Of a stretch of 64,000 bases of DNA, positions 1,000 through 18,641 are shown in pieces. The number at the start of each line of letters is the position of its first letter. Within the stretch, counting starts at the first letter, position 1. The notes beneath the pieces were generated by a model that was not told where the DNA came from, ran no database searches, and saw nothing but the letters and a program-made list of their open reading frames with translations. The translations under genes were made by a program, and so were the position numbers. The DNA comes from an uncultured Spirochaetaceae bacterium (GTDB lineage: Bacteria; Spirochaetota; Spirochaetia; Treponematales; Treponemataceae). The stretch spans positions 1 to 64,000 of the forward strand of contig CADCLG010000012.1 of NCBI GenBank assembly GCA_902802305.1, given 5' to 3'.

Positions 1000-2409
1000 T
1001 TATTCTTTCACCGTGAAGTACCCCGGAGAATCAGTACCACCGTCTACACGGGCGTAAGTTTTGTCGGTATTGTTGCTGTCGAATTTTGTGCCTGCACCGC
1101 CGGTGAGACTAGCACAGTATAACATATATCCGCTGTCTGTAAGAGTTTCGGAAGCTGACCAATCCGTGCCAGGTGCGACATAGATTGTGGTAAGATTATA
1201 GCAAAAGAAGAACATGTTTAACATAGTAGTAACATTGTTTATGTTAAAACTGCTTAAATCGAGCGATGTGAGAGCATAGCAATAATTAAACATGTAGGAC
1301 ATATTCGTAACCTTGCCTGTATCGAAATTACTCAAATCAAGCGAAGCGAGAGCATTACATTCGTTGAACATTTTGGACATGTTAGTAACACTATTTGTGT
1401 CAAAGTTGTTCAAATCAAGTGAAGTAAGTGCATTGCAATAGTTGAACATTCCAGTCATATCAGTAACACTGCTTGTGTCAAAGTTGCTCAAATCAAGTGA
1501 AGAAAGGGCCTTACATCCAGATACCAGCCGACTCATATCCTTTACATTACTTGTGTTAAAGTTACTCAAATCGAGAGATGTGAGGGCATTGCTTCCTGCG
1601 AACATACCAGACATATTCGTTACCTTACTTGTATTAAAACTGCTCAAATCAAGAGATGTGAGAGAGCTACAGCTGCTAAACATTTCAGACATATTCGTAA
1701 CTTTGCTTGTGTCAAAGTTACTCAAATCAAGAGAAGTGAGAGCGGTACAACAGTCGAACATTCTATTCATATTCGTGACATTGCTTGTGTCAAAATCAGA
1801 AAGCTCTATATATTCCAATTCTCTCATATAGCCGAACATTTCATTCGAATTTGCATTCAGACAAAGTTTTCCTCCTTCCTGAACATAATAATAGATAGTA
1901 TAGCTTTCTGCATCGTACCATACGGGAACAAGTTTTGTTTCGTCAAGATAAAAGCTTGCACTTTCAGGTTCGGTGTCGTTTTTTCTGAATGATGTCGCAT
2001 TTTGTGCATTCAGGTCGTTTCTGAGTATGGAATTTATATCATATCCTCTTTGTAAAGAAATCTTGCTGATAACAATTTCATGTGCGGTTGCAGTTATGTT
2101 TTGACAAATTTGTATATTGTCTTTACCTGCATACAGGGTAGAGTCATAATAGGTATAATTGAGTTCCCACCAGTAGACTTTATCATCGCTCGTCGGGCGC
2201 ACAAGGCGTATCGGCAGGTCATCGACGGTGAATGTGGTTACGGTGTTAGGGTTCTCCACTCCGTTTGGAAGCCCCTCGTAGGTGATGGTATATGTGTTCA
2301 GATTCCATCGTACCCAGAATATCTTGTCGCCGGTATCGTGCTCGATTTTATATGTATACTGGTTATTGGAAGAAATCAGATTGTTTCCGTTTGTTTCCGC
2401 GTCGTACAT
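1000..2409 (-). CDS. BspA-like DUF285 repeat C-terminal half (frame-split)
   Basis: 469 residues from the ATG at 2407-2409, but there is no signal peptide and no ribosome site, and the frame is open upstream to about 2454. It begins with InlB-like repeat remnants (IFWVRWNLNTYTITYEG), then carries about eight copies of a 24-residue unit of the type MFxxCxxLTSLDLSNFDTSxVTNM, the DUF285/BspA leucine-rich family found in surface lipoproteins of mycoplasmas and gut bacteria. It is the natural continuation of the gene at 2447-3466. Removing one T from a T6 run (plus-strand A6, 2449-2454) joins them in one frame of roughly 820 residues. Either phase-off, a real mutation or a sequencing error. Confidence 0.85.
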   Translation of the reverse strand: MYDAETNGNNLISSNNQYTYKIEHDTGDKIFWVRWNLNTYTITYEGLPNGVENPNTVTTFTVDDLPIRLVRPTSDDKVYWWELNYTYYDSTLYAGKDNIQICQNITATAHEIVISKISLQRGYDINSILRNDLNAQNATSFRKNDTEPESASFYLDETKLVPVWYDAESYTIYYYVQEGGKLCLNANSNEMFGYMRELEYIELSDFDTSNVTNMNRMFDCCTALTSLDLSNFDTSKVTNMSEMFSSCSSLTSLDLSSFNTSKVTNMSGMFAGSNALTSLDLSNFNTSNVKDMSRLVSGCKALSSLDLSNFDTSSVTDMTGMFNYCNALTSLDLNNFDTNSVTNMSKMFNECNALASLDLSNFDTGKVTNMSYMFNYCYALTSLDLSSFNINNVTTMLNMFFFCYNLTTIYVAPGTDWSASETLTDSGYMLYCASLTGGAGTKFDSNNTDKTYARVDGGTDSPGYFTVKE

Positions 2410-2446
2410 TCCATTTAATTCTGCGCCATCTTTATTGAAGCTACTT

Positions 2447-3466
2447 TTAAAAAATTATTGTGTACTCTATCGCCGTCCATCTTGCCCAAAGTGTTTTTAC
2501 GCCAGTAGAGCCTTTTGTAATCTTTGTGATAACATTTCCGCCTTCCGCAGCATCATACCAGGCAAAGTCATAACCTTCTTTTTCGATTTCCACAAGCGTG
2601 ATTTCGTCCTCTACCGTGTAGTTTGCAGGATTTGGGTTTGTCAGGCCGCTTCCAATATTGTTGTAGGTGATAGTATAAGAGATTAGACTCCACTTGGCGT
2701 AGAAAACCTTGTTTCCAGTGTCTGTTGCGGTAATTTCGGTTACAGCATCACCTGTGAGCGTTGTTCCGTTATCGTTCGAAGTAAACCATCCTTCAAACTT
2801 ATAACCAGTTCTCGTAATGTCGTCTGCAGTTGGGAGAGTTGCTGCTGTGCCATAAGTGTAGGTCGTAACATTTTTACCTTCTGTAATCGTTCCGCCATTT
2901 ACGTTGAGCGTTACATCGTATGTTGCCAAATCCCACTTTGCAGTAAGCGTTAAGTCACCTGTTGTTCCTTTAGCAATCTTAGTGACTTTTGTATTCTCGT
3001 TGAACCATCCGCTGAACATTCTGCCTGTTTTTTCTCCATTCTTTAGTGTAATTTCATCTTCAATCGTGTAGGTTGCGGGGTTTTCACTGTTGTTTGTTCC
3101 ACCGTCAAGATTGTATGTGATTGTGAATGTATGTAGAGTCCATTTTGCCTTCAGAGTGATTTTCTCTGTGACTGGCTTTGTAAAATCAAATACAGAAGCT
3201 CCATTATACCAGCCTCCAAAATCATAGCCGGCCTTGGTCGGGTCTGTAGGCTTATCAGCTGTCTTTCCACTTTCAATATTTTGTGCCTCAACCGAGCTTC
3301 CACCATCAGAATCAAATGTAACTGTGTAATAAACAGGCTTTTCTGGCTCATCTACATTGTTCTTGCACGAAACAATTCCAAACATCAGTGCAAATACTGC
3401 CAACAGAGCGACAAGTTTACCTGTCATTGCTGTGCTCGATATGGCAATCTTCTCAAACTTTCTCAT
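2447..3466 (-). CDS. InlB-repeat lipoprotein, N-terminal half (frame-split)
   Basis: 339 residues. A lipoprotein signal (hydrophobic stretch, then FGIVSC) leads to four InlB B-type repeats of about 65-70 residues, each with a YxITYNxxGG-like start, a GYxFxGWF core and an LTAKW end. The frame stops at IEYTIIF-stop inside a further repeat, directly at the T6 tract that separates it from the DUF285 half. The ATG at 3464-3466 has GGAGG upstream. Exported and lipid-anchored; the repeats probably extend a distal leucine-rich domain from the cell surface. As it stands the product would lack that domain. Confidence 0.85.
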   Translation of the reverse strand: MRKFEKIAISSTAMTGKLVALLAVFALMFGIVSCKNNVDEPEKPVYYTVTFDSDGGSSVEAQNIESGKTADKPTDPTKAGYDFGGWYNGASVFDFTKPVTEKITLKAKWTLHTFTITYNLDGGTNNSENPATYTIEDEITLKNGEKTGRMFSGWFNENTKVTKIAKGTTGDLTLTAKWDLATYDVTLNVNGGTITEGKNVTTYTYGTAATLPTADDITRTGYKFEGWFTSNDNGTTLTGDAVTEITATDTGNKVFYAKWSLISYTITYNNIGSGLTNPNPANYTVEDEITLVEIEKEGYDFAWYDAAEGGNVITKITKGSTGVKTLWARWTAIEYTIIF

Positions 3467-6592: not shown

Positions 6593-6703
6593 TTTTTATT
6601 TATCCTTAAAAAGTTAATTATTTATAAAGTCATATTATAAAGCAAAAGGTTTAATTTTTAAAGATAATATTTTATAATCAATAATAAAAGAGAGGTTTCA
6701 AGT

Positions 6704-6772
6704 ATGAATAAAAAAGAAGGCGTGAAAAAAAAAAGAAGGCGTGAAAAAAAAAGAAGGCGTGAATAAAAAAAC
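6704..6772 (+). repeat. Poly-A tract within tandem repeat at gene start (phase-variation candidate)
   Basis: After the ATG at 6704-6706, which has AGAGG upstream, the DNA repeats the unit GTG-A9-GAAGGC. Copies carry A10 (6725-6734) and A9 (6744-6752), preceded and followed by partial copies with A6-A7. With A10 the ATG frame stops at a TAA after about 20 codons. With A9 it would run into the acyltransferase frame. Changes in tract length or loss/gain of a repeat unit would switch translation. Confidence 0.75.
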
Positions 6773-8756
6773 TTTTAATGAAAATTATATGGGGCTGTCT
6801 CAGACAAAAAACATTCTTGGACTTTTTTCTCTTTTGATTATCCTGCATCATATAGCCCTAAAAATGCCTGCGCACCCTGCAAATATTCTTTTACCTTTTA
6901 AAAGCATTGGTTATCTTTTTGTTTCCTACTTTTTCTTCTGTTCTGGTTATGGTTTATACAAAAGCTTTATTTCTAAAACCAATTACCTTGAGGGCTTTTT
7001 AAGCAAGCACATAATTCCAATTGCAATCAGTTTTTTTATAACAGATTTGCTTTTTCAGTTTGCACGACTTTCAAGGGGAGAACCAGGCTTTCCTGCAAGC
7101 ACCTACAGCTGGTTTATTTTTGTAATAGTTGCATTATATTGCGCCTTTTATTTTTGCTTTAAACATATAAAAAAATCCCCTGAAATTGTCCTGCTTTGCC
7201 TCACTCTTTTATACTGTCTTCTATGCCGCCTTCTTTATGCAGAAACCTATCTTTATAACAGCATAATCGCTTTCCCAATAGGAATCTTTTTTGCTAAATA
7301 TGATGAAAAGATTTGCAGCCTTACTAAAAAGCACTGGCTGCCGGTATTTTTAATCACTACAATCATTCTGGCACTTCTGCTTATTATTTGCCTTGATGAA
7401 AAAAGACACTACACAGACTTTCATACAATCACGCAGATTATAAGCACTATATTTTTCTGCCTGACCATTACTTTTTTAAGCATGAAAGTAAAGTTTGAAA
7501 ATAAAGTTTTCTCTTTTCTTGGGGGAATGACGCTTGAAATCTATTTGGTTCATGTGCTTTTTGTAGAAATATTTGCAGCAAAGTTTATAGGATATCTTGA
7601 ACCAATATTCTATATTAAAAATCCAATTTTATACTCGGCTGCAATTTTTATTCTCACAATTCCGCTTGCTTATGGAATAAAGCTTTTAAGAGCAAAGCTT
7701 CCGCAATTTATTATTGGAAAATCATATACACAATACATTGGAAAGTTTCTTAAACGCCTTTTGAAAATCATAATAATTCTTTTTGTCCTGGCAGCAGGAT
7801 ATTTTTCTATTACAAGCCATATCAAAACAAAGAAAAGTGCAGAAAGCATAAAAAAATACAGCGATGATTTTATCAGCTACACAAATATTGACGGCAAAAA
7901 TATGGCTTCCTATATCACGGGAGAAGGAGAAGATACAATTCTGATTCTTGGAGATTTGGAAGATCCTTCTCCTACACTTTCTTTAAGACCACTTGCAGAT
8001 CATCTGGCAGAAAATTATAAAGTGATTGTAATAGATTATTTTGGACAGGGCTTTAGTGACAATACAAAAGAGGAACGTACAGTTGAAAATATTATTTCGG
8101 AGCTTCATTCTTTTGTTACTCAGAATAAACTTGCAGATAAAGAGAATAAAGGCGATAAAGGTGTCTCTGAATCAGATTCTTCCTTTATTTTAATGAGCAT
8201 TGCTGCCTCTGGACTTTACGCCGCTTCATATTTAAATAATTACCCGGAAGAAGTAAAGGCACTTATAGGCTTTGATATGATTACCCCAGCTCTGATAAGC
8301 GAATATTATGACAATGCAGATTTTACCGAAAAGCAGAGTTATCTTGTTGCAAAAATGTATGAAAATCAAAAAAGACTTTTACATAAGTTTATGTCGATTA
8401 GCGGTTTTATACGGATGGAGCTTGTAATGTATGAGCAGCTTTTTGCAACAGATGTGATGAGTAATTATTTTGATGTAGTTGAAGAAAAACTCATTGCAAG
8501 AAGATATGGAAAAGAAGAAATTGAATCAGAGGCAAACTTATGCAGGGGTGCAAGAAATATGGATTTTGCAAGACTTCCGTCAAAGCTGCCTGTTCTTTTA
8601 ATGACCAGACAAAAGGAAATGCTGGATTCATATACAAAAATGATTACAGCTTCTTCAATTCAATCTTGCGTAAAAATGACAAACGAAAATTATCAGTTGA
8701 TTTACAGGCCGCTTTCAATTGTCACACAGATAAATGACTTTTTTGCTAATAATTGA
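6741..8756 (+). CDS. Membrane acyltransferase fused to degenerate alpha/beta hydrolase
   Basis: 671 residues from the in-frame GTG at 6741; the better start (ATG 6704 with AGAGG and a TATAAT at 6673-6678) is one base out of frame because of an A10 tract. Residues about 20-330 form an acyltransferase-3 (OafA/NodX-like) multi-helix domain: ILHHIAL carries the usual His, followed by about ten membrane helices. A last helix (IIIILFVLAAGYFSI) leads to an extracytoplasmic alpha/beta-hydrolase-like domain, residues about 380-670. There the expected GHSxGG elbow reads SIAASG, so the nucleophile Ser is Ala, and the C-terminal GH is replaced by NENY. Likely role: acylation of a surface glycan, with a binding-only hydrolase fold. 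Confidence 0.8.
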   Translation: MKKKEGVNKKTFNENYMGLSQTKNILGLFSLLIILHHIALKMPAHPANILLPFKSIGYLFVSYFFFCSGYGLYKSFISKTNYLEGFLSKHIIPIAISFFITDLLFQFARLSRGEPGFPASTYSWFIFVIVALYCAFYFCFKHIKKSPEIVLLCLTLLYCLLCRLLYAETYLYNSIIAFPIGIFFAKYDEKICSLTKKHWLPVFLITTIILALLLIICLDEKRHYTDFHTITQIISTIFFCLTITFLSMKVKFENKVFSFLGGMTLEIYLVHVLFVEIFAAKFIGYLEPIFYIKNPILYSAAIFILTIPLAYGIKLLRAKLPQFIIGKSYTQYIGKFLKRLLKIIIILFVLAAGYFSITSHIKTKKSAESIKKYSDDFISYTNIDGKNMASYITGEGEDTILILGDLEDPSPTLSLRPLADHLAENYKVIVIDYFGQGFSDNTKEERTVENIISELHSFVTQNKLADKENKGDKGVSESDSSFILMSIAASGLYAASYLNNYPEEVKALIGFDMITPALISEYYDNADFTEKQSYLVAKMYENQKRLLHKFMSISGFIRMELVMYEQLFATDVMSNYFDVVEEKLIARRYGKEEIESEANLCRGARNMDFARLPSKLPVLLMTRQKEMLDSYTKMITASSIQSCVKMTNENYQLIYRPLSIVTQINDFFANN

Positions 8757-8854
8757 TTTAGTGTCAAAATTATTCTATTATACAATGTAGATAAACATTG
8801 TTTTTTTTTAATAAATTGCTAGCAGTTGCATAAGTGTATATACAGGAGAATAAA

Positions 8855-15215: not shown

Positions 15216-18200
15216 CTAATTGCTTTGTTTAATGAAATATGAACTAGAATAACCCCGTAATAAAGCTGCATTGGCTTGTGTGTCTGTAGCTGACATTGGA
15301 CCAATAGTAGCACCAGATCTACTCCAATTACTAGTTGTATCCTCAAAAACAACACTAGTAAGTTCAGTACAACCATCGAAAGCTTTAGAATAAATATTCC
15401 TCACATCATTCCCAATAATTACGCTAGTAAGCATTGAACATTTATAGAAAGCACCCTCTGAAATGTTTCCTCTTGTGATTTTAACTTTTTTAAGAGATGA
15501 AGGAATATAATAATAATAATAATTTTTATACAAAGCTGTCATCCCCGGCTCTGTTATCGGTTCTGTCGGATTTGAATAAAAATCAGTCCTATCCGAACTA
15601 TATGCTTGTGATTGTGAATAGCTGTTATATCCAAAAATTACTCCAAATACGCTCTCATAACTGCGAGAATTCTGAGTAAGACCTATAAATGGTATTGAAA
15701 GTTCCTCAAGAGAAGTACAATGAAGGAAACAACCAACGCCTATACTAGTTACACTATCAGGAATTATTACTTTTGTAAGACTTGAACAGTTTCCAAATGC
15801 ATACCCACCAATGCTTTCGATACTTCCATCAATACTTATATCAGCAAGTGATGTACAACCATAGAATGCATACTTTCCAATACTCGTAACTTCATTAGGA
15901 ATCTCAATTTCTTCCAAAGCAGTACATTCTGCAAAAGCATAATCTCCAATACTTGTAGCATCCGAAGGAATCTGAATAGATTCAAGTGATGAACAACCAT
16001 AGAAAGTATAATCGTTTATAACTTCAATAGTATTTGGCAAGGTAATCTCTTCAGCAGAAGAACAACCACAAAATGCATATTCTCCAATTGTTGCAACAGA
16101 ACCAGGTACAGAAATGCCTTCAAGCGATTTACAATTATAAAATGCATATTTTCCAATAGAAAGAACTGTTTCTGGAATTGAAATTGACTTTAATGATGAA
16201 CAATAAGCAAATGTGTAAGCACTGATAGCTGAGGATGCGGAAGAAATAATAATTGAATAATTGGAACAATCTTTGAATAACGGGTTTGTAAACGAGGATG
16301 ATATTGATGTAGGTGCAAAACTAGTCAAAAGTCCATTCTTTATTGTGATTTCAATATTGCTGGTTTCTTTGAATGCATATTCTCCAATTGTAGTAACAGA
16401 ATCTGGAATTACGATTCTAGAAAGTTTGACACATTTTTCGAATGCATAAGTACCGATTGTTTGTAATGTATTAGACAAAGTTAAGTTAGCTAAATTAGAA
16501 CATGCAGAGAAAACGTGACTACCAATACTAGTAACTGTATTAGGTAAAGAAAGAACTGTAAATCCATCACACTTTGCAAAAGCATAATCACCTATTGATG
16601 TCAATCCATTCGGCAAAGACAAAGCAGATAATCCTGTACAATTATAGAAACAATAAGCTCCAATCTCTCTTAAATTAGAAGGGAATGTTATTGACTTTAA
16701 TTCCGTACAATCATAAAAGCAGTATGCAGCCAAAGTTGTTGTTCCACCAATAACTGTAATTGTGTAGTTTTTGCATTCTGCAAGAAGAGTGTTTTCTTTG
16801 CTTGTAGAGTCTGCAGCAGGAGTTATAGAATTGAGAAGAGTATTGTTAATTGTTATGGCAATATCTTTACATCCCTTGAAAACATAGCTACCAATTGTTG
16901 TTACATTATCTGGAATAACAAGGCTTGTAAGTTTTCCGCAGTTTTCAAAAGCGTTATTGTCTATTGAAACTACAGTTTCTGGAATTGTAAGTTCAGAAAG
17001 TTCAGTACAACCTTCAAATGCATTTTTACCAATATTTTCCAATGCAGCAGAGAGAGTTACTGTAGTAAGTTTCTTACAATCTGCGAATGCATTACTTGAA
17101 ATAACCACAACATTATCGCTCATTGTTATAGAAGTAAGTTTTGAACAACCAGAAAAACAATATGAATTAATTGTAGTAACATTTTCGCCAATTTCTATAC
17201 TTTCCAATTCTGAACAACCAGTGAATACACGTTCACCCAAAGATGTTACACTATCAGGTACCTCAATTGAAGTAAGAGAAGAACAATTTTCAAATGCACC
17301 ATAACCAATTGACCTTACACCTGTTCCAAGATTCAATGTTGTTATAGCACTACAACCAGAGAAAGCCTGTTTTCCAATGCTCAGAACTGCATTTGGAATT
17401 ACAATCGAAGTTATAATCCTATTATTCATAAAAGCAGAATCTGCAATTGAAGTTAATGAAGAAGGAAGAGTAATTCCAGCAAGGTTTGCACAATTAGCAA
17501 ATGTTCGTTCTGGGATTGCAGTCAGACTTGTACATTCAGACAAATCCAGGTCTACCTTTACACCAGTTGAATCAAGAGCTGTTCTTATATAACTCATTGA
17601 CGGATTTGTATCTGTGATTTTTACAGTAACAGTACCATTATTATATCCTTCGAAGGCTGAATAAAACTCCGCAGCAGAACATGTTAATTCAGTAATCCAT
17701 TTTGCATAATAAGTTTTATTTCCATCGGTTCCTAACGGTATTTTAGTTACTCTCTGACCTGTAAGTTCTGCATTATCAAACCAACCGGCAAAAACAGCAC
17801 CATTCTTAGACAAAGTAACAGGTAATGTAATTGTCGTGTAATTTGTATAAGAAAGTGGTATATAAATATCATCATCCCAAGTTCCTTCATTTAATTCATA
17901 AGTGATGGAATAAACTGTATTTAATTTTTCAATTTCTTCTGCACCTGTGGTAGTGCAACCAGGAGCTACGCGAACTATTACGCTGTAAGTATTTATATAT
18001 GTTGAATCTGAAGCATTTTGATATAAATAAAAACGAAGAATATATGAACCTTTTGCAACAGAAGTTTTATTGTATGTTACAGTTGACACTCCATTAGTTG
18101 TAGTAGCTGTAAGATTTTGAGCAGCGTAACCAGTTACTGCGGTTCCTGCTAAATCAAAAAGACCTGCCGTAACCTTTGCAATACCATTTTCAGGATAACT

Positions 18201-18641
18201 TAAACTAACATTCAAACTACCGTTTCCTGTGGAAGTTTCATTAAGTGTAAATGATAAGCTGTTATTACCATAGCTTATTGATTTTGAAATAGTAGAAGTA
18301 AGAACTACATTATCATCTTTTGATGCTTCTAAGGTAAAATACCAATCACCAGTAGTCAATTCAATTTTTGTCATACTTTGTAAAGCTGCATAATTTGCCC
18401 ACGAACCAAGCTGTGTCATAGCACTTTCAGAAGCTTTTCTTCCTTTCAAAACATAAGAAAGTTCATCGCGAGTAAGTGCTGTTGGAAGAACCGTTCTTGC
18501 AGATTCATCTGATATACCGACCGTAATAAAGGCGCGGTTTTCATAATCAAAAGCAACATTTTCATTGTTATTACTACATCCATTAAAAAGAGCAAATAAC
18601 AATAACGTTCCAACAACAATAATTAAGTTTTTAATTTTCAT
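15216..18641 (-). CDS. BspA-type LRR_5 surface lipoprotein
   Basis: 1141 residues. Lipoprotein signal MKIKNLIIVVGTLLLFALF followed by NGC at about residue 22. Residues about 38-240 are a module shared with the next protein (SARTVLP, GDWYFTLEAS, LSFTLNETSTGNGSL, ILRFYLYQN, EEIEKLN). One InlB-type repeat follows (YSITYELNEGTW to YYAKW). The rest is about 25 BspA/LRR_5 repeats of 23 residues, consensus SIGxYAFxGCSxLxxIxIPxSVT. BspA-like proteins of oral spirochetes and Bacteroidetes bind host matrix or other bacteria; the ligand here is unknown. AAGGAG precedes the ATG. Last gene of a three-gene operon, 26 bases from the gene upstream. Confidence 0.92.
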   Translation of the reverse strand: MKIKNLIIVVGTLLLFALFNGCSNNNENVAFDYENRAFITVGISDESARTVLPTALTRDELSYVLKGRKASESAMTQLGSWANYAALQSMTKIELTTGDWYFTLEASKDDNVVLTSTISKSISYGNNSLSFTLNETSTGNGSLNVSLSYPENGIAKVTAGLFDLAGTAVTGYAAQNLTATTTNGVSTVTYNKTSVAKGSYILRFYLYQNASDSTYINTYSVIVRVAPGCTTTGAEEIEKLNTVYSITYELNEGTWDDDIYIPLSYTNYTTITLPVTLSKNGAVFAGWFDNAELTGQRVTKIPLGTDGNKTYYAKWITELTCSAAEFYSAFEGYNNGTVTVKITDTNPSMSYIRTALDSTGVKVDLDLSECTSLTAIPERTFANCANLAGITLPSSLTSIADSAFMNNRIITSIVIPNAVLSIGKQAFSGCSAITTLNLGTGVRSIGYGAFENCSSLTSIEVPDSVTSLGERVFTGCSELESIEIGENVTTINSYCFSGCSKLTSITMSDNVVVISSNAFADCKKLTTVTLSAALENIGKNAFEGCTELSELTIPETVVSIDNNAFENCGKLTSLVIPDNVTTIGSYVFKGCKDIAITINNTLLNSITPAADSTSKENTLLAECKNYTITVIGGTTTLAAYCFYDCTELKSITFPSNLREIGAYCFYNCTGLSALSLPNGLTSIGDYAFAKCDGFTVLSLPNTVTSIGSHVFSACSNLANLTLSNTLQTIGTYAFEKCVKLSRIVIPDSVTTIGEYAFKETSNIEITIKNGLLTSFAPTSISSSFTNPLFKDCSNYSIIISSASSAISAYTFAYCSSLKSISIPETVLSIGKYAFYNCKSLEGISVPGSVATIGEYAFCGCSSAEEITLPNTIEVINDYTFYGCSSLESIQIPSDATSIGDYAFAECTALEEIEIPNEVTSIGKYAFYGCTSLADISIDGSIESIGGYAFGNCSSLTKVIIPDSVTSIGVGCFLHCTSLEELSIPFIGLTQNSRSYESVFGVIFGYNSYSQSQAYSSDRTDFYSNPTEPITEPGMTALYKNYYYYYIPSSLKKVKITRGNISEGAFYKCSMLTSVIIGNDVRNIYSKAFDGCTELTSVVFEDTTSNWSRSGATIGPMSATDTQANAALLRGYSSSYFIKQSN

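Follow-up and report, generated by a model that had tools for sequence, protein, structure and literature searches.

A candidate slipped-strand switch at the 5′ end of an acyltransferase gene in Treponema, with adenine runs nested in a tandem repeat

A gene for an acyltransferase-3 (AT3) enzyme lies on the forward strand of the 64,000-nucleotide stretch of DNA analysed here (hereafter the window; positions 1 to 64,000 of contig CADCLG010000012.1, assembly GCA_902802305.1, from an uncultured Spirochaetaceae bacterium). Its 5′ end may be a slipped-strand phase-variation switch whose present copy would be in the OFF state, a reading for which we regard the case as evenly balanced. An ATG at 6704-6706 opens a frame that encodes MNKKEGVKKKRRREKKRRRE and meets TAA at 6764 after exactly 20 codons, as translated by script (6704-6766, the predicted OFF product). 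The 671-codon frame of the enzyme (6741-8756), which includes GTG 6741, GTG 6759 and ATG 6789, lies one base off. Between this ATG and the enzyme frame is an 18-bp tandem repeat, with one 19-bp unit, that carries runs of ten and nine adenines (A10 and A9). A sequence-only reading of the window had described the ATG with AGAGG and TATAAT upstream, the 18-19 bp unit, the stop after about 20 codons and the one-base offset, and all of these were borne out by direct reading, by script translation and by Tandem Repeats Finder (TRF). That reading had missed three points taken up below: an in-frame difference in the number of 18-bp units from a close homologue, the purifying selection on the enzyme, and slippage on these A runs during transcription or translation, which might make the OFF state leaky. 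If the switch is real, a membrane acyltransferase of Treponema would be turned on and off stochastically by a poly-A tract.

The array is about 66 bp long, and TRF describes it as 18 bp × 3.6 copies (score 109) or, alternatively, as 19 bp × 3.3 copies (score 110). Unit 1 (6704-6721, 18 bp), read directly and by script, begins with the ATG itself, encodes MNKKEG and contains A6. Unit 2 (6722-6740) is the 19-bp unit and holds the extra base, its frame-shifting A10 occupying 6725-6734, and unit 3 (6741-6758, 18 bp) has its A9 at 6744-6752; both were delimited by TRF and script. A partial unit 4 (6759-6772) contains A7, and alignment with relatives (L072) places its GTG at the position of the start codon in array-less relatives. 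The A10 and A9 runs are copies of one unit and hence are not independent. They begin 21 and 40 nt past the start of ATG 6704, which puts a repeat of hypermutable type at the 5′ end of the gene, as in a contingency locus. Also as in such loci, the length of the repeat sets whether a short or a full frame is read: the two frames have 20 and 671 codons, and the protein of a close homologue, P0001, is in frame.

The ribosome-binding site of ATG 6704, and the way P0001 reads from unit 1 into the enzyme frame, make it very probable that the acyltransferase gene starts there, as had been supposed from the sequence, and that the array differs between close relatives. The site, AGAGG at 6691-6695, forms a duplex of −8.1 kcal/mol with the anti-Shine-Dalgarno sequence at a spacing of 7. 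Over spacings of 4-13, the other candidates reached −0.9 (GTG 6722), −1.5 (GTG 6741) and −2.0 kcal/mol (GTG 6759), with none for ATG 6789, so no candidate other than ATG 6704 has a strong ribosome site within a usable distance. When the best of up to three ATGs was taken for each of 339 genes, 77% of the genes were weaker than or equal to this site (gene median −6.2), and as a control, 30 of 3500 random positions inside open reading frames (ORFs) were as strong as −8.1 kcal/mol. The TATAAT at 6673-6678, a possible −10 box, was read by eye; a strict promoter scan did not list it on the forward strand, and the five promoter-like hits of that scan, against 1.8 (standard deviation 1.6) in shuffles, are a weak signal.

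It is conceivable, though highly improbable, that translation starts by design at GTG 6741 or GTG 6759 and that the upstream ATG is irrelevant. GTG 6759 does align with the start codon of array-less relatives, for example MTEKKFNEN in G119, a genome of the genus, and MSEKRFNEN in homologue P0004. Moreover, when spacings from 1 nt are admitted, the AGAAGG directly 5′ of each of three GTGs (6722, 6741 and 6759) reaches −4.1 kcal/mol at spacing 1, with ATG 6704 still at −8.1. Such a start is opposed by the lack of a ribosome site for these GTGs at spacings 4-13 and by P0001 itself, which retains Asn2 of unit 1, as from ATG 6704.

P0001 is a 96% identical homologue of 671 residues, in a cluster of 19 members (longest contig 3079). 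Its N-terminus is MNKKEGVNKKTFNEN (further: MNKKEGVNKKTFNENYMGL), in which unit 1 leads directly into the enzyme frame and two units present in the window are missing. In the window, Asn stands before KKEG in unit 1 only; the N-terminus of P0001 is therefore equivalent to unit 1 fused to unit 4 and read in the enzyme frame. A comparison of related strains had been suggested along with the sequence-only reading; P0001 has the smaller unit number and an intact frame, and G119 has no array.

When 200 genomes of the genus were searched, matches at E ≤ 1e-40 turned up in three, namely G165, G119 and the genome that contains the window, and in none of the 85 better-quality ones (at least 90% complete, at most 5% contamination). 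G119 is the one genus relative whose gene start could be compared: it begins with ATGACTGAAAAAAAATTC, has a single A8 and no array, and has the same divergent AMP-binding neighbour as the window. All 2497 bases of the G165 locus match L019 of Treponema sp. isolate RUI346 exactly, and it is on this basis that we assign the genus to Treponema; the N-terminal half was sought in the RUI346 genome and none was found, the contig of the locus beginning at about residue 340. Two shorter N-terminal protein queries for strain variants returned nothing closer than 63%, a scan of GTDB contigs gave one locus, and among 107 homologous proteins, some of them fragments, P0001 alone has KKEG within its first 40 residues. 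Because G119 lacks the array, the KKEG start occurs only in P0001 and no closer variant was found, the array is probably of recent origin and, on the sequences compared, confined to this lineage. A dispersed repeat was also considered and rejected: the exact 17-base core AAAAAAGAAGGCGTGAA occurs at three places in the whole genome, all in this array, and the seven other hits carry two mismatches, against five such hits for a reversed control pattern.

As a separate observation, contig ends interrupt the gene in the orthologous loci of both relatives (at the start of L019/L070 and, in G119, at the end of C104 and the start of C76, which are L072 and L071). The two contig ends of G119 share 141 identical bases, like a break in an assembly graph, and may point to strain variation.

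In the proposed mechanism, the A10 unit sets ATG 6704 one base off the 671-codon frame, which would leave the enzyme OFF, and gain or loss of a single A in A10 or A9 by slipped-strand mispairing would carry the ATG frame into or out of that of the enzyme. A gain or loss of entire 18-bp units would preserve the frame and alter only the Lys-rich tail that precedes the first membrane helix. This tail is probably disordered, since the seven N-terminal residues are modelled with low confidence, and it should tolerate changes in length. An extra copy of unit 3 would also bring an extra A9 run, and copy number would in this way set the count of slippery sites. It is by inference that we take the enzyme to be OFF in the cell at present, the tract to vary in the population and the change to be reversible. 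A fuller version, which we find rather doubtful, is that of a self-multiplying switch in Treponema, where in-frame 18-bp duplication would copy the A9 site, repeat number would tune the rate, and single-A slips would set ON or OFF, all on an AT3 enzyme with a nucleophile-less hydrolase domain. While a poly-A switch at the 5′ end of a gene is of a known kind, we judge the nested layout to be unusual; a frame-breaking run inside a frame-keeping repeat would link repeat number to switching rate.

Several points weigh against a switch. The array DNA is known from one assembled copy, from which length variation within a population is extrapolated, and P0001 is known as a protein record whose start was the choice of a gene caller. 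A complete mutS is present (an 893-codon frame, over the cut-off) and should lower slippage rates. The A10 state may be non-silent, as the in-frame GTG 6741, GTG 6759 and ATG 6789 follow it. In addition, runs longer than seven are generally not overrepresented in coding genes, to go by the available part of a genome survey (PMC2831843). No wider set of poly-A switch loci was found in a sample of 457 kb (13% of the genome), and the single extra base would equally fit a one-off mutation or an assembly error.

Of these last two, an error of sequencing or assembly, with the true sequence in frame, is very unlikely. Errors are notoriously common in homopolymers and short tandem arrays. The genome of the window is a draft of 108 contigs, 89.61% complete with 5.32% contamination, and the contig breaks inside the orthologues of both relatives also speak for an error. 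Nevertheless, an array of about 66 bp would fit within one ordinary short read, if such reads were used.

Also unlikely is that a repeat which arose by accident has lately suffered a frameshift of no adaptive value, with the gene being lost and no selection for switching. Over 332 codons compared with RUI346 (residues 340-671), there are 33 synonymous and 23 non-synonymous differences, which gives a ratio of non-synonymous to synonymous rates (dN/dS) of 0.16; over 570 codons compared with G119, the ratio is 0.19, with synonymous sites saturated. The adjoining hisG has 32 synonymous differences and one non-synonymous (dN/dS 0.007). By these comparisons of sequence, the enzyme is under purifying selection, yet evolving much faster than hisG. 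A ratio of 0.16 argues against a long-dead gene and is compatible with recent loss; with all 671 codons open, such a loss would therefore have to be recent. Both tracts are also long enough for reversion by slippage. What speaks for loss is that the array has been seen in this lineage only and that matches are so scarce in the genus (the 3 of 200 and 0 of 85 genomes given above), showing the gene to be often absent.

The same purifying selection on the enzyme part would fit the main rival reading, likewise unlikely, in which the enzyme is made in spite of the shifted frame. Slippage by RNA polymerase or sliding of ribosomes on A10 or A9, or re-initiation at GTG 6759 or ATG 6789 would then give a steady low output, and the array would be an attenuator instead of a switch. 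GTG 6759 begins 5 nt ahead of TAA 6764, so the short and enzyme frames overlap. In tssM1 of Citrobacter rodentium, a frame is likewise broken beside a run of about ten adenines, and an A11 run rescues the gene by transcriptional slippage; in the accessible part of that report, the run lies just before a late stop, both products are needed and bypass is demonstrated, whereas here bypass is a rival reading (PMC4256274). Consecutive AAA codons can also make E. coli ribosomes pause and slide, according to a report available in part (PMC4363877). However, the downstream starts have no ribosome site at usable spacing, and the main frame lies at +1, so that one A would have to be lost or two gained in the RNA, or the ribosome do the equivalent. 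P0001, moreover, is in frame without any bypass.

The standing of the A runs in this genome was judged from the 457-kb sample, which consisted of the window plus 393 kb. Contig 1 was taken whole to base 340000, and pieces of contig 4 were picked with some A9 positions already known, so the sample is not unbiased; ORFs were called mechanically as open frames of at least 100 codons from the first ATG, GTG or TTG, and some starts will be wrong. The sample holds 34 A or T runs of at least nine, 8 inside called ORFs and 26 outside, though called ORFs cover 92-95% of the sampled pieces. The A10 discussed here falls among the 26 because the called ORF starts at GTG 6741. The window contains only 5 A9 words, where dinucleotide shuffles average 18.8. 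Chance A runs were rejected as an explanation on these two grounds, the rarity of A9 words and the 26 of 34 long runs outside called ORFs.

Starts were also paired with runs of at least seven where a start with a ribosome energy of −6 or better lay no more than 90 nt upstream and its frame reached the run. This gave 116 pairs in the sample, 53 of which stay open for at least 100 codons past the run, with none of these runs above eight. In 12 of the 116, the frame is broken: it meets a stop in at most 40 codons, and a different frame stays open for at least 100. Two of the 12 are this locus, nine involve A7 or T7, and one is an A9 on contig 4 that comes after the upstream frame has ended; 28 nt further on is the ATG of a lipoprotein-like gene, which has a ribosome site of its own (−7.5). 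For five broken A7 pairs, the list contains no separate in-frame start (C1 7631, 76196, 316702 and, on the reverse strand, 53086; C4 29973, in a joined piece). The array locus is the outstanding case in the sample.

Lys-Lys-Lys is coded as A9 in 6 of 39 windows against 12.8 expected, a weak result in which four of the six come from one A20 run. This run, the longest in the sample, is uninterrupted, in frame and Lys-coding (C1:331194-331213) within a 790-codon frame (C1:330219-332591, L066) that we take from its sequence to encode a Lon-like protease.

Likenesses to the proposed switch are found in several known systems. In the vaa gene of Mycoplasma hominis, one base more or less in a 5′ poly-A tract shifts the gene out of frame, A8 being ON and A7 or A9 OFF; vaa encodes an adhesin and, in the part of the report available, has a single A7-A9 tract with a known switching frequency, whereas here the gene is for an acyltransferase, two runs are nested in an in-frame repeat, and switching is putative (PMC524362). 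In inlA of Listeria monocytogenes, a 5′ poly-A frameshift also leaves a very short peptide. Variation there occurred at a frequency some 1000-fold that of the average point mutation, and across 99 genomes poly-A and poly-T runs were biased to 5′ gene ends; that case has strain and fusion data, with no tandem array mentioned in the portion at hand, while the array here is known from sequence (PMC2831843). A phase-variable gene for an AT3-type O-acetyltransferase exists in Haemophilus influenzae, namely oafA. As far as the accessible sections of two papers go, oafA has a GCAA tetranucleotide tract, a lipooligosaccharide substrate and no mention of a hydrolase-fold domain, in place of the poly-A and hydrolase fold seen here, and the phase variation of oafB-type acetylation in Salmonella is epigenetic (PMC6479036, PMC9558356). 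Literature on homopolymeric tracts and phase variation in Treponema concerned, by its titles, mostly the syphilis treponemes, and for phase variation in rumen Treponema the records, seen in part, turned up only work on Mycoplasma.

The enzyme itself matches Pfam PF01757 (acyltransferase-3) over residues 27-313 with 60 bits against a gathering cut-off of 31. It had been called a surface-glycan acyltransferase; the family assignment held, while the surface-glycan role is unproven, and the neighbours of the gene are an AMP-binding ligase and histidine genes including hisG. AT3 proteins have an R/K-X10-H motif in helix 1, as given in the available parts of two papers (PMC9558356, PMC9833829). In 34 sequences compared here, K23 is nearly invariant and H36/H37 are invariant, with 12 residues separating K23 and H36, a spacing unlike that of the motif.

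The AlphaFold2 model of the 671-residue protein (mean predicted local distance difference test score 87.7) continues beyond the AT3 part with a long helix at residues 328-377 and, at about 367-671, an alpha/beta-hydrolase fold, which VIA-align relates to the epoxide hydrolase, dehalogenase and esterase fold. The fold searches listed only the hydrolase domain, with no AT3 structure among the 50 matches listed, and are uninformative on the AT3 part. No nucleophile was found at the elbow of this domain, where the sequence reads SIAASG with Ala at the aligned position. In an automatic alignment of 66 proteins (the window's included), judged by the usual elbow pattern, that position was Ser in one, Asp in one and Cys in none; the fragments P0022 and P0035 and the AT3-only homologues P0068-P0098 were left out. 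The proteins that combine AT3 with an alpha/beta-hydrolase fold (homologues P0001-P0067) would thus be a family with an apparently nucleophile-less hydrolase domain. Fusions of AT3 to SGNH and alanine-racemase domains have been described, and the AT3-SGNH acyltransferases OafB and OatA likewise have AT3, an 11th helix and a C-terminal hydrolase-type domain, according to the parts available of the same two papers (PMC9558356, PMC9833829). Unlike their SGNH domain, the extra domain here has an alpha/beta-hydrolase fold with no nucleophile at the aligned elbow.

Past the acyltransferase gene by 44 nt, and ahead of hisG, is a T9 run (8801-8809) in a possible promoter region. Elsewhere in the window, genes at 1000-3466 and 15216-18641 encode proteins rich in repeated segments, presumably of the leucine-rich/BspA-like and bacterial-repeat type, and a 78-bp tandem array occupies 1298-1794.
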